The position numbers and the translations under genes were made by a program. From Halovenus sp. (GTDB lineage Archaea > Halobacteriota > Halobacteria > Halobacteriales > Haloarculaceae), in NCBI GenBank assembly GCA_028275025.1, contig JAQCNM010000103.1, positions 1 to 34,557 on the forward strand: a stretch of DNA of 34,557 nt, given 5' to 3'. Under the pieces are notes generated by a model that saw nothing but the letters and a program-made list of their open reading frames with translations, was not told the origin of the DNA and made no database searches. Shown here piece by piece: positions 29,665-34,557 of this stretch (its first letter is position 1; each line of letters opens with the position of its first letter).

Positions 29665-31215
29665 TCAGAGCGGCATGTTCCCGTGTTTGCGGTCGGGGTT
29701 TGTCGCGCGCTTCGAGCGCAGCATCTCGAGGTCGTCGACCAGTCGGGGCCGGGTGTCTGCGGGTTCGAGCACGTCGTCGACGAACCCGCGGTCGGCCGCC
29801 GTGTAGGGGTTGGCGAACTCCTCGCGGTACTCCTCGATGAGTTGGTCGCGGCGCTGTTCGGGGTCGTCCACCGCGTCGAGTTCGTCACTGTAGAGAACGT
29901 TGACCGCGCCGCGTGGCCCCATCACGGCAATCTCGGCCGTGGGCCAGGCGTAGTTGACATCGGCACCGATATGTTTCGATGCCATCACGTCGTAGGCACC
30001 GCCGTAGGCCTTGCGCGTGATGACGGTGAGCAGCGGCACGGTCGCCTCGGAGAAGGCATAGAGGAGTTTCGCACCGTGGCGGATGATACCGCCGTGTTCC
30101 TGGTCGGTCCCGGGCATGAACCCCGGAACGTCGACGAAGGTGAGAATCGGGATGTTGAACGCGTCACAGAACCGCACGAAGCGGGCACCTTTCACCGAGG
30201 ACTCGATGTCGAGGGTGCCCGCGTTGACCCGTGGCTGGTTCGCCACCACACCGACGGCGTGGCCGTCGAGGCGCGCGAACCCGACCGCGAGATTGCGTGC
30301 GAACGACCCACCCACCTCGAAAAACGAGCCCTCGTCGGTGACACGCCCGATGACGGCCGTCATATCGTACGGCTGTCGTGGCTCGTCGGGGACGATGTCG
30401 GCGAGTTCGTCGTCGCGGCGGTCCGGGTCGTCCCAGGGGTCTACCCGAGGTGGGTCCTCGACGTTGTTCTGTGGGAGATAGGAGAGCAGGTGTGCCACGT
30501 CGTCGAGTGCGGACTTCTCGTCCGCGGCGGTGAACTGTGCCACACCGGACTCGGTGGCGTGTGTCGTGGCACCGCCGAGTTCGTCGAACCCGACACGCTC
30601 GCCGGTGACCGTCTCCACCACGTCGGGACCGGTGATGAACATGTGGCTCGTCTCCTCGACCATCATGATGAAGTCCGTGATCGCCGGAGAGTAGACCGCA
30701 CCGCCGGCACAGGGACCCATGACGACCGATATCTGCGGGACGACACCGCTTGCCTGCTGGTTCCGGTGGAATATCTCGGCGTAGCCGGCGAGTGAGTCGA
30801 TCCCCTCCTGGATGCGCGCGCCGGCGGAGTCGTTCAGCCCGATTATCGGTGCGCCGGTCTCTATCGCGCGGTCCATCACCTTTGTGACCTTCTCGGCGAA
30901 CACCTCGCCCAGTGACCCGCCGAACACGGTGAAGTCGTGGGCGAACAGAAAGACGGTGCGACCGTCGACCGTGCCGTAACCCGTTACCACACCGTCACCG
31001 GGCACCTGTTTTTCCTCCATGTCGAAGTTGTGCGAGCGGTGGGTGCGGAACTGGTCGAACTCGGTGAAGCTCCCGTCGTCGAGAAAGTAGTCGATGCGTT
31101 CACGTGCGGTGAGTTTCCCCTTTGCGTGTTGTTTCTCGATGCGTTCCTCGCCACCACCGCTGCGGGCCTCCTCGCGGCGCTCCCGCAGTTCGTCGATACG
31201 GTCGTCGGTGGTCAC
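29665..31215 (-). CDS. pccB: Acyl-CoA carboxylase, carboxyltransferase subunit
   Basis: The 516-residue carboxyltransferase has the N-terminal and C-terminal crotonase-like halves: KGKLTARERIDYFLDDGSF, DSAGARIQEGIDSLAGYAEI, MGPCAGGAVYSPAITDFI in the first and VDVPGFMPGTDQEHGGIIRH, ITRKAYGGAYDVMASKHIGA in the second. It transfers the carboxyl group from biotin to propionyl- or acetyl-CoA. The start codon is GTG (31213-31215), placed by a GGGAGGGGA ribosome-binding site; a TATA box lies at 31261-31269. It is the first gene of the pccB-X-A operon and diverges from the noncoding RNA locus. Confidence 0.92.
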   Translation of the reverse strand: MTTDDRIDELRERREEARSGGGEERIEKQHAKGKLTARERIDYFLDDGSFTEFDQFRTHRSHNFDMEEKQVPGDGVVTGYGTVDGRTVFLFAHDFTVFGGSLGEVFAEKVTKVMDRAIETGAPIIGLNDSAGARIQEGIDSLAGYAEIFHRNQQASGVVPQISVVMGPCAGGAVYSPAITDFIMMVEETSHMFITGPDVVETVTGERVGFDELGGATTHATESGVAQFTAADEKSALDDVAHLLSYLPQNNVEDPPRVDPWDDPDRRDDELADIVPDEPRQPYDMTAVIGRVTDEGSFFEVGGSFARNLAVGFARLDGHAVGVVANQPRVNAGTLDIESSVKGARFVRFCDAFNIPILTFVDVPGFMPGTDQEHGGIIRHGAKLLYAFSEATVPLLTVITRKAYGGAYDVMASKHIGADVNYAWPTAEIAVMGPRGAVNVLYSDELDAVDDPEQRRDQLIEEYREEFANPYTAADRGFVDDVLEPADTRPRLVDDLEMLRSKRATNPDRKHGNMPL

Positions 31216-31341: not shown

Positions 31342-31357
31342 CGGTAGATTTAATACC
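31342..31357 (+). promoter_or_regulatory. BRE/TATA promoter of the noncoding RNA
   Basis: CGGTAGA followed by TTTAATA (31349-31355) is one of the clearest TATA boxes in the window. At the usual 24-27 bases it predicts a start at an A around 31375-31377, just before the RNA's closing helix, and no start codon of a plausible gene follows. Confidence 0.65.
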
Positions 31358-31375: not shown

Positions 31376-31870
31376 CAATCCCCACGGTGGACGTGGGCGC
31401 ACACGAACGTCCCGGGTTGGATCGGCGATAGCCGAGATGGCACGGGATGGGGGCCAACGCCAACACACCCGTGAGGGTGTGGAGGCTTAGGTCCCGAAGG
31501 AGAACCGAACCGGTCCAGTGCGTCGCCGCCGCGGCGGTGGCGGAGCAAGGCCAACTACCGGATTACGCGCAAGCGGAGTTCGGAAACACGACGGCACGCC
31601 GGTGAAAACCCGGCTCACGCCGGTTCGCGACGGCAGTGCCGGTGAGAGTCCGGCTACCGTCGACGGAGGGCCACGGACGAGGGCTCGTCCCCTGCGGGAC
31701 GCGCCCGAAGTTCACCGGTCCGTCGATGTCGGCAACATCCGGTGGGAACCCGGACAAAGCCAGGCGAGTCGGTAACCGGCGGTGAGAGCCCGCCGAAAGC
31801 CGTCACCGGTCGTGCGGACCGGGGACAACGTCCCCCGTTCGGTGCAGTACCCGCGTCTACGGTGGGACCC
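31376..31870 (+). ncRNA. Large structured noncoding RNA of unknown class (about 495 nt)
   Basis: No convincing protein frame exists in this stretch. The predicted transcript start lies 2-4 bases before 31379-31393, which can pair with 31854-31867 in a helix of about ten to twelve pairs broken by small bulges, closing the whole RNA. Inside are hairpins with GNRA tetraloops: UCGGC-GAUA-GCCGA (31422-31435), ACACCC-GUGA-GGGUGU (31465-31480), CGC-GCAA-GCG (31566-31575). Four hairpins have 7-base loops UGAAAAC, UGAGAGU, UGGGAAC and UGAGAGC on GC stems (31598-31614, 31638-31654, 31738-31754, 31778-31794). Further strong stems are at 31681-31706, 31725-31739, 31806-31822 and 31821-31835; a few neighbouring stems share one or two bases. 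The gene runs convergent to the exporter. It lacks the SRP helix-8 motif and the RNase P GAGGAAAGUC and ACAGAA motifs. Confidence 0.6.
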
Positions 31871-31909: not shown

Positions 31910-34486
31910 TCAGTCCGAGGACGACGCCGACTGTCGCAACCCCTGTTCACCCTCTCGACGGACGAACCGGGCCCACTGGTACAGCAGGCTCGGGAGAACA
32001 AACACGCTCAGGAGAAACGACGCGGCGAGCGTGAGCGCGAGGATGACACCCATCGACTGGAACGTGGCGAGCGGCGCGACGATCAGCAGTGCGAACGTGC
32101 CCGTCGACGTGACCGCACTCCCGAGCAGTGCACCACCGGTCCCGGTCGTTGCCTCCCGCAGGGCCGTTCCGACGTCGGCCCCGCGCTCGAGTTCGGTCGC
32201 GAACCGGTCGCTGATGTGGATGTTGTAGTCGATACCCAGGCCGATCGCGATACTCACGATGAGGGCGGTGACCGCGGTCAACGGCTCGCCCAGCAGGAGC
32301 ATCCCCCCGAACACCAGCGCGAGCACCAGTGCGATCGGCAGGGCGGTCACCAGACCGAGTGTCGCGCTGTTGTAGGCGATCCGGTAGACGGCTGCCAGAA
32401 CAACGAACACCCCGGCCAGTGCCAGCAGCATCGTCGTGACGATGCCGTCGACGATCTCCGCGATGTAGGCGTCGTTGAGCGTGCCACTGCCGACCGCGGT
32501 GACCGACGCGGCGGTGGCCCCGTCGATCTCCTCCTCGATATCGAACATCGCCGTGGCACGGTCGTCACCGAACCCGCCCTGGACCGGCACGAGCAGACGC
32601 ATCGACGCGTAGCCGTCGTCGGTCTGTTCGAGCAGCCGTGTCGCCTGGGGGGCGGCCTCGACAAACGCATCGAGTGTCGCCGGGACGTCCTGTTGGGGAA
32701 CGAGCGACCGGAGTCGGTCCGGGTCACTCGTCTGGGTGTCGGCGGCGGCCGCGAACTGCGCGGCGAACGCGGAGTCGGGGTTGTCGGCGGCGAGTTCCTG
32801 CATCGCGGTGAGCGGTGAGCGCACGTCGACGACACCGCCCTGGTTGACCACGACGTCCGGGTCGGCCGCGGCGGCGGCCGTCTCGCCGGTCGCCAGCGCC
32901 TGCATCGTCTCCGCCGTCGCGACGTCGCCACGTAACAGGAACTGCGTGAACGCGAAGGTGCTGTCGGGGTCGTCGCCGGTCGTGGCGAACTGGTCGTCGG
33001 CAAAGGAGAGTTGCTGTGCCGCCTCGGTCTCGTGGAGTTCGTACGCCATCGGGCCGGGGAGTTCGGACTGCCAGCCCGGGTCCGACAGGGGGTCGCTGTC
33101 CTGGAACTGCTGGCGGTCGACCTCGGTGAACGCCACCCCGCCGACGGCCCCGACCACCAGCGCCAGCGCGATGACGACCACACTGGCCCGCTGTGCGACC
33201 GTCACACTCCCGCCGAGAACGCGGCCCAGGTACGAGCCCTTTCCGAGGGCTACCGCCGTGCGGTCGAAGCCGAACCGCTCCCAGAGGCCGTCGGCACTCG
33301 TCTTCAGGGCCGGCACCAGCGTCGTGAAGATGACGAACGCCGAGAGCACGGCGAGGATAAACGCGACTGTGAGGTCCCGTATCAGGCCGACGGGGTTCGT
33401 CAGGTTCGGGACGAAACCGACCACAGCGGTCACTGTCACGAGCACGAACGCGACCATCACCGCAGCGGTCGACCGCCGGAGGCTGTCCCGGATCCCGTCG
33501 TCCGTGCCACGTCGCTCCCGGTACCGCATGAACACGTGGAAGCTGAAGTCGATACTCAGCGCGATGGCGAGCACCGGGACGACCAGCCCCGTCTGCTGGC
33601 CGAGCAGCCCGAGCCAGCCCATCAGGCCGAACGTCCACAGGAGTGTCACGACGACACCGGTGAAACTGACGACCACGTCGGTGACGTCCCGGTACGCGAA
33701 CCCGAGGATCACCGCAAGCACGAACAGAATCATCGGAACGACGAGCCAGGCCAACTCGGGGAGCACCTGCTGGGTGACATCCTCCTGTAGGCCGGCGGTC
33801 GTGAACACCGTCACCGGGGTCGACTCGCTGACTGTCGTAGCGGCCTCGCCGAGTTCGTCCGTGATATCTGCCCCGTCGGTGACGGTGAGCAACAGCCGCA
33901 TCCCCGCAGCGTCACTCGTGCCAGCCTCGTAGTCCACCGGCAGGAACTGTCGGATCTGGTCGCTCTCGGCCTCGGCGAGTGTGGCCCGGACAGCCTCGTC
34001 GACAGCGGCCGGACTCGCGTCGGCGACTGCCTGTCGCTGTGTCGCCAGGTCGGGGTCGGGCTCGTCGGCCAGGCGCACGGCAACGGGGACCGCCGGGTTG
34101 CGGATACTGTCCCCGGGTGTCTCCCCGGCGAGTGCGTCGGTGACCGACGCGGAGTCACCGACCGCGATCTGGTAGTCGAGTGCGGCCAGCAGCCCCGCCT
34201 TGTTCAGCACCGACCCGTCGTTGCCCTGAATGTACACCGCATCGGTCGAGGTCTCGTCTTCCCCGTCGAAGTAACGCGCGTCGAGATACGTCTCCGCGTC
34301 GTGGACAGCCGTTCCCTCGATAACGCTCTCACTGGCCCCGTTTTCGGCGTCGCGTTGCTCCTGAGTCAGTCCAAAGACGACCCCGGCGGTCAACACGAGC
34401 ATCACCAGAACTACAACTCGGTTGTGGTCTGTCACCACCCTGGCGACCCCACCTGTGACCGCGGTGAGTCCGTCTGCGAGGTTCAT
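31910..34486 (-). CDS. RND/MMPL-superfamily membrane exporter
   Basis: The 858-residue protein has the two-fold RND plan: a first membrane helix (VVVLVMLVLTAGVVFGLTQE), a large outer domain of about 220 residues, five or six helices including AIALSIDFSFHVFMRYRERR with the conserved aspartate, then a second outer domain and a second helix bundle with the matching IAIGLGIDYNIHISDRFATE. It belongs to the archaeal/bacterial MMPL-like exporters, which move hydrophobic molecules or lipids using an ion gradient; the cargo is unknown. ATG 34486 (MNLADGLTAVTGG) is chosen over an upstream in-frame ATG at 34543, because a TATA box (34509-34516) lies 26 bases ahead. The C-terminus ends in a Ser-rich tail near the noncoding RNA's 3' end. 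Confidence 0.88.
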   Translation of the reverse strand: MNLADGLTAVTGGVARVVTDHNRVVVLVMLVLTAGVVFGLTQEQRDAENGASESVIEGTAVHDAETYLDARYFDGEDETSTDAVYIQGNDGSVLNKAGLLAALDYQIAVGDSASVTDALAGETPGDSIRNPAVPVAVRLADEPDPDLATQRQAVADASPAAVDEAVRATLAEAESDQIRQFLPVDYEAGTSDAAGMRLLLTVTDGADITDELGEAATTVSESTPVTVFTTAGLQEDVTQQVLPELAWLVVPMILFVLAVILGFAYRDVTDVVVSFTGVVVTLLWTFGLMGWLGLLGQQTGLVVPVLAIALSIDFSFHVFMRYRERRGTDDGIRDSLRRSTAAVMVAFVLVTVTAVVGFVPNLTNPVGLIRDLTVAFILAVLSAFVIFTTLVPALKTSADGLWERFGFDRTAVALGKGSYLGRVLGGSVTVAQRASVVVIALALVVGAVGGVAFTEVDRQQFQDSDPLSDPGWQSELPGPMAYELHETEAAQQLSFADDQFATTGDDPDSTFAFTQFLLRGDVATAETMQALATGETAAAAADPDVVVNQGGVVDVRSPLTAMQELAADNPDSAFAAQFAAAADTQTSDPDRLRSLVPQQDVPATLDAFVEAAPQATRLLEQTDDGYASMRLLVPVQGGFGDDRATAMFDIEEEIDGATAASVTAVGSGTLNDAYIAEIVDGIVTTMLLALAGVFVVLAAVYRIAYNSATLGLVTALPIALVLALVFGGMLLLGEPLTAVTALIVSIAIGLGIDYNIHISDRFATELERGADVGTALREATTGTGGALLGSAVTSTGTFALLIVAPLATFQSMGVILALTLAASFLLSVFVLPSLLYQWARFVRREGEQGLRQSASSSD

Positions 34487-34508
34487 ACGGGCAGGTCTCT
34501 GTCGATGT

Positions 34509-34516
34509 ACATAAAC
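34509..34516 (-). promoter_or_regulatory. Promoter of the exporter gene
   Basis: On the minus strand GTTTATGT lies about 26 bases before the ATG at 34486, the leaderless spacing seen at several genes of this window. Confidence 0.55.
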
Positions 34517-34557
34517 GGTCGACCCAGGGCTCTCTCCTCGCAACGGGGGTCACAGAT

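Follow-up and report, generated by a model that had tools for sequence, protein, structure and literature searches.

Positions 31376 to 31870 of the window (the whole 34,557-nucleotide stretch of Halovenus sp. DNA analysed here) encode a structured RNA, which confirms the original observation made in a first-pass annotation of this DNA. The RNA belongs to a new, previously undescribed family and is specified by a free-standing noncoding RNA gene. The gene is recognised by its fold and conservation; there are no transcript data, and the transcript itself is inferred. We lean towards the fuller reading that this free-standing gene of a new family supplies the RNA partner of HARP, a protein-only RNase P, with binding inferred and no expression data available.

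Locus and fold of the window RNA

The gene occupies the + strand of an intergenic region bounded by two genes on the − strand, for a methylmalonyl/propionyl-CoA carboxylase-type subunit (29665–31215) upstream and an RND-type exporter (31910–34543) on the other side. Relative to shuffled sequences, folding gives z = −7.0 for the + strand and z = −4.4 for the − strand. A strong TATA box and a transcript start just before a long-range closing helix had been proposed from the letters alone. The box is present and is kept by close homologues, and its position places the expected start near 31376–31379, in agreement with the 5′ strand of helix P1 (Table 1). In many promoters of this RNA outside the window type (L106, L111, L140, L147 and others), a GGTANCNTAC-like sequence follows the TATA-like box at a distance of about 10 nt.

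Only the intergenic location would favor the interpretation that the RNA acts in cis, as a leader or riboswitch belonging to a neighbouring gene. Both flanking genes in the window lie on the opposite strand, and elsewhere (84 RNA hits, clustered by neighbouring genes) the flanks vary and face either way. As no downstream gene is shared across loci, this explanation is already contradicted, and we give it next to no credence.

The window-type RNA forms a structure of 104 pairs. In ten window-type homologues, 97.7% of the cells are standard pairs and 23 pairs have changed on both sides. None of 500 shuffled controls was as good, and sliding of the partner strands reduces pairing to 34–49%. A nearly identical fold was recovered from the window-type homologues by unconstrained RNAalifold. 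Thus, the closing helix proposed by the first-pass annotation is right, and it extends into helix PA. One caveat is that the 5′ strand of P1 could alternatively self-fold in many relatives. The interior had been described as dense in GNRA hairpins and GC stems. P6 has a GNRA loop, but many of the interior hairpins are T-loop-like arms rather than GNRA hairpins. The arms are located in P7 (31598–31614, 31638–31654, 31738–31754 and 31778–31794), each with 5 bp and a 7-nt UGNRANY loop. Hairpins of this size, which is that of a tRNA T-arm, recur in P7 of many homologues. The spacing between P6 and the 3′ core, which reflects P7 size, ranges from 0 to about 260 nt across homologues, and the smallest forms have one short hairpin.

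Table 1. Features of the RNA gene in the window (coordinates are window positions).
Feature	Position	Strand	Evidence
TATA-like box TTTAATA	31349–31355	+	Sequence; TTTAATA/TTTATA-type box equally spaced in close and distant homologues; promoter activity is a prediction
Structured RNA, about 490 nt, long (window-type) form of the new family	31376–31870	+	z = −7.0; homologues 78–84% identical; model R1 140 bits; covariation
Closing helix P1, 5′ strand	31381–31397 (31381–31385, 31390–31397)	+	Pairs with 31850–31866 in all window-type homologues; 2 compensated pairs; covaries in 57 other copies
Closing helix P1, 3′ strand	31850–31866 (31850–31857, 31862–31866)	+	As for the 5′ strand; 31381–31385 pairs with 31862–31866 and 31390–31397 with 31850–31857
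Helix PA, 5′ strand	31399–31409 (31399–31402, 31404–31409)	+	5 of 10 pairs compensated in window type; 96–100% paired in 57 other copies, 3 significant pairs
Helix PA, 3′ strand	31836–31845	+	As for the 5′ strand
Hairpin P2	31410–31447 (31410–31414/31443–31447, 31422–31426/31431–31435)	+	Paired cells 98–100% in window-type homologues
Hairpin P3, two internal loops	31450–31495	+	Window-type alignment; significant covariation of P3a and P3c among 57 copies
PB, 5′ strand (GGAGA)	31499–31503	+	Partner 31831–31835; 82–100% paired across 57 copies; one A-C mismatch in window copy
PB, 3′ strand	31831–31835	+	Partner of 31499–31503
Long-range core helix P4, 5′ strand	31510–31516	+	4 of 7 pairs compensated in window type; 3 significant pairs among 57 copies
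P4, 3′ strand	31816–31822	+	Partner of 31510–31516
Hairpin P5	31521–31542	+	6 of 9 pairs significant in 57 copies
Most conserved strand AAGGCCAACTA	31547–31557	+	Near-invariant; still recognisable in distant members L194–L196
P4b, GGCC (within AAGGCCAACTA) with GGTC	31549–31552/31808–31811	+	Covaries in 57 copies
Hairpin P6, GNRA loop (GCAA)	31558–31583	+	3 significant pairs in 57 copies
Variable domain P7, four T-loop-like arms	31584–31807	+	T-arm stems 100% paired; compensatory changes in 3 of 4 arms

Across 57 diverse copies with the variable P7 removed, the fold is fully nested and consists of P1, P1b, PA, P2, P3, PB, P4, P5, P4b, P6 and P7. Covariation was evaluated with our own R-scape-like script (not R-scape itself), in which the null redistributes substitutions along the tree. 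Significant covariation was found for 23 of 60 pairs (E < 0.05, testing structure pairs only), including pairs in the long-range helices P1 (2), P1b (1), PA (3), P4 (3) and P4b (1). Six pairs pass a stricter all-pairs test, among them one in P1 and one in P4. The 3′ ends of family members were placed by scored consensus across loci.

These data show an architecture in which P1 pairs the ends, stacked PA, PB and P4 lead to a core with P2, P3, P5 and P6, and P7 is a replaceable element that grows and shrinks. The window RNA has the nested P1, PA, P4 and P4b with compensatory changes and the conserved core strands by which the family is recognised. Considered separately, a GGAGA/UCUCC pseudoknot was rejected, as this pairing is nested (PB), and a kink-turn in P3 was rejected by eye because the internal loop is unsuitable.

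Comparison with known RNA families

No Rfam 15 family reached its gathering threshold in the window. At the same thresholds, a search that covered the window plus seven loci of family members, the most distant among them, returned only two unrelated tRNA genes. Relaxed thresholds gave nothing credible for the window and distant members, the best matches being mir-342 (E 0.56) and IMES-1 (E 1.4). The lack of SRP and RNase P signature motifs had already been remarked upon, and neither model matches the window. The genuine genes for archaeal RNase P RNA (RF00373; G000:C131, 175 bits) and archaeal SRP RNA (RF01857; G000:C147, 180 bits) sit elsewhere in the genome. There were no matches in a pattern scan of a virus collection and none in a search of phage DNA. 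We did not find a published description of the RNA in the literature searched, which was open-access only.

A large, GC-rich RNA with GNRA and T-loop hairpins could in principle be a divergent RNase P RNA, SRP RNA or self-splicing intron. The absence of any Rfam match and the separate canonical RNase P and SRP RNAs count against this, as do the typical occurrence of a single copy per genome, the varied loci and the lack of an encoded protein. We regard a divergent known RNA as exceedingly improbable. The earlier suggestion of an undescribed class of large structured RNA is supported by the lack of an Rfam match, the existence of homologues, the covariation and the conserved architecture.

Homologues and distribution

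Homologues were found, though at varied loci with differing flanks. A DNA search of 59 related genomes recovered seven near full-length homologues (78–84% identity) and, in other families of the same order, matches to the core. A two-block pattern search of 84,980 species returned 39 stretches, comprising 36 haloarchaeal loci and three bacterial matches; the latter are attributed to chance, as the rest of the RNA is missing. A covariance model of the P3–P6 core (R1) had matches in 119 of the 392 genomes sampled from the order. Four matches below 26 bits were dropped, leaving 115 genomes, about a third of the haloarchaeal genomes sampled, mostly with a single copy. Two unlinked strong copies are present in each of G032, G289, G318 and G390, and two tandem copies on the same strand, about 300 nt apart, in G230 (L151:6001–6588). 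The RNA of one window-type copy (L071:2535–2900) stops within P7 and runs into the end of what appears by eye to be an IS200/IS605-type-like element; this copy is probably interrupted.

Outside the order, a second covariance model identified two clear members (G416 and G425) and one weaker (G434), which share the core strands AAGGCCAAGTA, GGAGAAACCGCAGCA or GGGAAAACCGCAGCA, and GGAAAA. All three were confirmed by a third model, R3, which was built including them. These genomes, from the same phylum, are all HARP-positive. Our guess is that the distant host families are also halophiles. Improved models failed to detect the RNA in 39 of 40 HARP-positive, RNA-negative haloarchaea; the single weak match (G203, 38 bits) is at background level with R3. 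R3 likewise found no RNA in another 29 HARP-positive genomes that belong to the phylum but not to the order.

Genomic association with HARP and Rnl3

Clustering of the genes around the 84 RNA hits identified an 'RNA ligase partner protein' (TIGR03875/PF08745) as the commonest immediate neighbour. In the literature this protein is known as HARP, a protein-only RNase P (PMC12153264). HARP adjoins the RNA in several families, in divergent or convergent orientation, and the genes farther away are unrelated. At divergent loci, the HARP start codon is 123–142 nt from the conserved 5′ anchor of the RNA, and at convergent loci the HARP stop lies 87–107 nt past the end of the core model. The gaps between the two are 115–240 nt in 18 tabulated genomes. 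Two annotated Halorussus plasmids carry the unannotated RNA beside an 'RNA ligase partner protein' (HARP), and RNA, HARP and the RNA ligase Rnl3 are clustered in G108 and G046 (HARP of G046 was read from sequence). In the three non-haloarchaeal carriers (L212, L213 and L214), HARP adjoins a histidyl-tRNA synthetase-like gene (identified by eye) and not Rnl3. In two genomes the Rnl3 match is split by about 73 bases inside one open frame (G174:C1:2159049–2160188 and G369:C8:75916–77070), which suggests an insertion in the ligase.

Among the 392 genomes of the order, 106 have both RNA and HARP, 9 the RNA only, 56 HARP only and 221 neither. HARP is thus found in 106 of 115 genomes with the RNA vs. 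56 of the 277 that lack the RNA (odds ratio 46; Fisher p = 1e-42 across genomes, uncorrected for relatedness). Because relatedness of the genomes inflates this p-value, we also counted genera: HARP occurs in 42 of 45 genera with the RNA vs. 17 of 50 others (p = 8e-10).

In PMC12153264, Rnl3 is described as the genomic partner of HARP in 89% of HARP genomes, and the remaining genomes are left open. In the order studied here, the RNA occurs in nearly all HARP genomes that fall outside the Rnl3 pairing (45 of 46). The lone exception is a genome of 85% completeness in which the HARP match is fragmentary. Where HARP and Rnl3 are both present, the RNA is found in 61 of 116 genomes, and either Rnl3 or RNA accompanies HARP in 161 of 162. 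Since almost all HARP genomes devoid of Rnl3 contain the RNA, the RNA and the ligase look like alternatives. Among the control genomes, Haloferax volcanii has HARP and no Rnl3 match, and the pattern would predict the RNA in that species.

From the co-occurrence, the adjacency and the presence of the RNA in HARP genomes without Rnl3, we infer that the RNA is probably the partner of HARP in halophiles, as a substrate, regulator or decoy. This inference is based on genomic linkage, which is no proof of physical binding, and there are no binding data. Also weighing against it are the roughly half of Rnl3-positive HARP genomes that show no RNA and the 29 sampled HARP genomes outside the order in which none was found.

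The window lineage is the strongest evidence against strict dependence on HARP. No HARP match exceeds the cut-off in nine of the ten window-type genomes, the window genome (78.6% complete) among them, and the only positive one (G029) is listed at 5% contamination. Completeness of these genomes is 63–88% each, and nine absences are unlikely to arise from incompleteness alone. Thus, this lineage probably lost HARP, and kept and enlarged the RNA, which there must act alone or with something else. G019 and G067 (99% complete) also have divergent RNAs and no HARP. Taken with the window-type genomes, they indicate that HARP is not strictly needed.

RNA and HARP may instead have been co-retained in halophiles for a shared ecological reason, without joint function. 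Both are patchy and mainly haloarchaeal, and the HARP-less window lineage retains the RNA. It is harder to reconcile with direct adjacency in several families on alternate sides and with unrelated flanks, or with the complementarity with Rnl3, and we consider it rather improbable.

Possible roles of the RNA

If the RNA is the partner of HARP, HARP, an oligomeric PIN-domain protein-only RNase P, would bind it, and the RNA would either be its dedicated substrate or restrain or direct its nuclease. The RNA and Rnl3 may be alternative means by which HARP is given a task or is curbed.

As a dedicated substrate, the RNA would mature through cleavage by HARP, and in genomes with Rnl3 the ends juxtaposed by P1 would be ligated into a circle. 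P1 does bring the ends together, and G108 and G046 group all three genes. As an endonuclease, HARP recognises structure, reading the tRNA elbow and the cleavage site (PMC8266387), and for C/D box RNAs it has been proposed that HARP and Rnl3 act together in processing and circularisation (PMC12153264). The predicted starts, however, coincide exactly or nearly with P1, so that hardly any leader would remain to be trimmed, and 45 genomes with the RNA have HARP without Rnl3. We consider this role possible but, on balance, unlikely.

Alternatively, the RNA could be an inhibitor or antitoxin, a decoy that curbs the PIN nuclease by occupying the HARP oligomer, with Rnl3, able to reseal cuts, as the alternative safeguard. 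Such a role is consistent with the near-constant company of Rnl3 or RNA in HARP genomes, the divergent placement at about 125–140 nt in many loci and the frequent T-arm-like hairpins in P7. A toxin-antitoxin interpretation of HARP-Rnl3 was raised in the 2025 paper (PMC12153264). Some of the smallest HARP-adjacent forms lack T-loop arms, however, and the RNA is retained in the window lineage in the absence of HARP. Also unfavorable is that HARP is not known as a toxin in archaea. We hold the decoy role, too, to be unlikely, and consider it and the substrate role about equally likely.

More broadly, we tentatively suggest that HARP of halophilic archaea does not stand alone as a protein RNase P and instead forms one half of a ribonucleoprotein system, in which a dedicated large RNA would bind the oligomer and control or target its nuclease, with Rnl3 as an alternative partner; we put this forward as a possibility and would not yet rely upon it. 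HARP-positive archaea also possess an RNA-based RNase P, and HARP knockouts showed no growth phenotype under the conditions tested (PMC12153264, PMC8266387), so the archaeal role of HARP is unexplained. If true, the ribonucleoprotein arrangement would account for the retention of HARP in archaea that have a normal RNase P. An unannotated RNA that accompanies HARP is a concrete candidate for its substrate or regulator, and the role of HARP becomes directly testable in genetically tractable haloarchaea.

Comparison with known systems

Type III toxin-antitoxin systems pair an RNA antitoxin with an endoribonuclease. They resemble the present system in the linkage of a structured RNA to a ribonuclease gene in variable neighbourhoods. 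The differences are that HARP is a PIN_5 protein and that the RNA is one large fold, which in many cases is divergent to HARP or not linked to it.

Archaeal RNase P RNA (RF00373) is likewise a structured RNA associated with RNase P activity, an association that for the RNA described here is inferred. The two differ in that our RNA is unmatched by that model in a genome with a separate canonical copy, and in that HARP is described as acting without RNA.

The large ornate noncoding RNAs OLE, GOLLD and ROOL (PMC12286853) likewise run to several hundred nucleotides, form many helices, have a peripheral domain that can expand and encode no protein. The RNA described here has no Rfam match to them, is archaeal and is linked to HARP.

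The HARP-Rnl3 gene pair (Seshadri and Gopalan 2025, PMC12153264), in which Rnl3 is a Pab1020-type RNA ligase, involves the same HARP with the same patchy distribution in halophiles, but no dedicated noncoding RNA is mentioned in the available part of that paper. Beyond that pair, the RNA is present in 45 of the 46 HARP genomes of the order without Rnl3 and occurs with both HARP and Rnl3 in 61 others.
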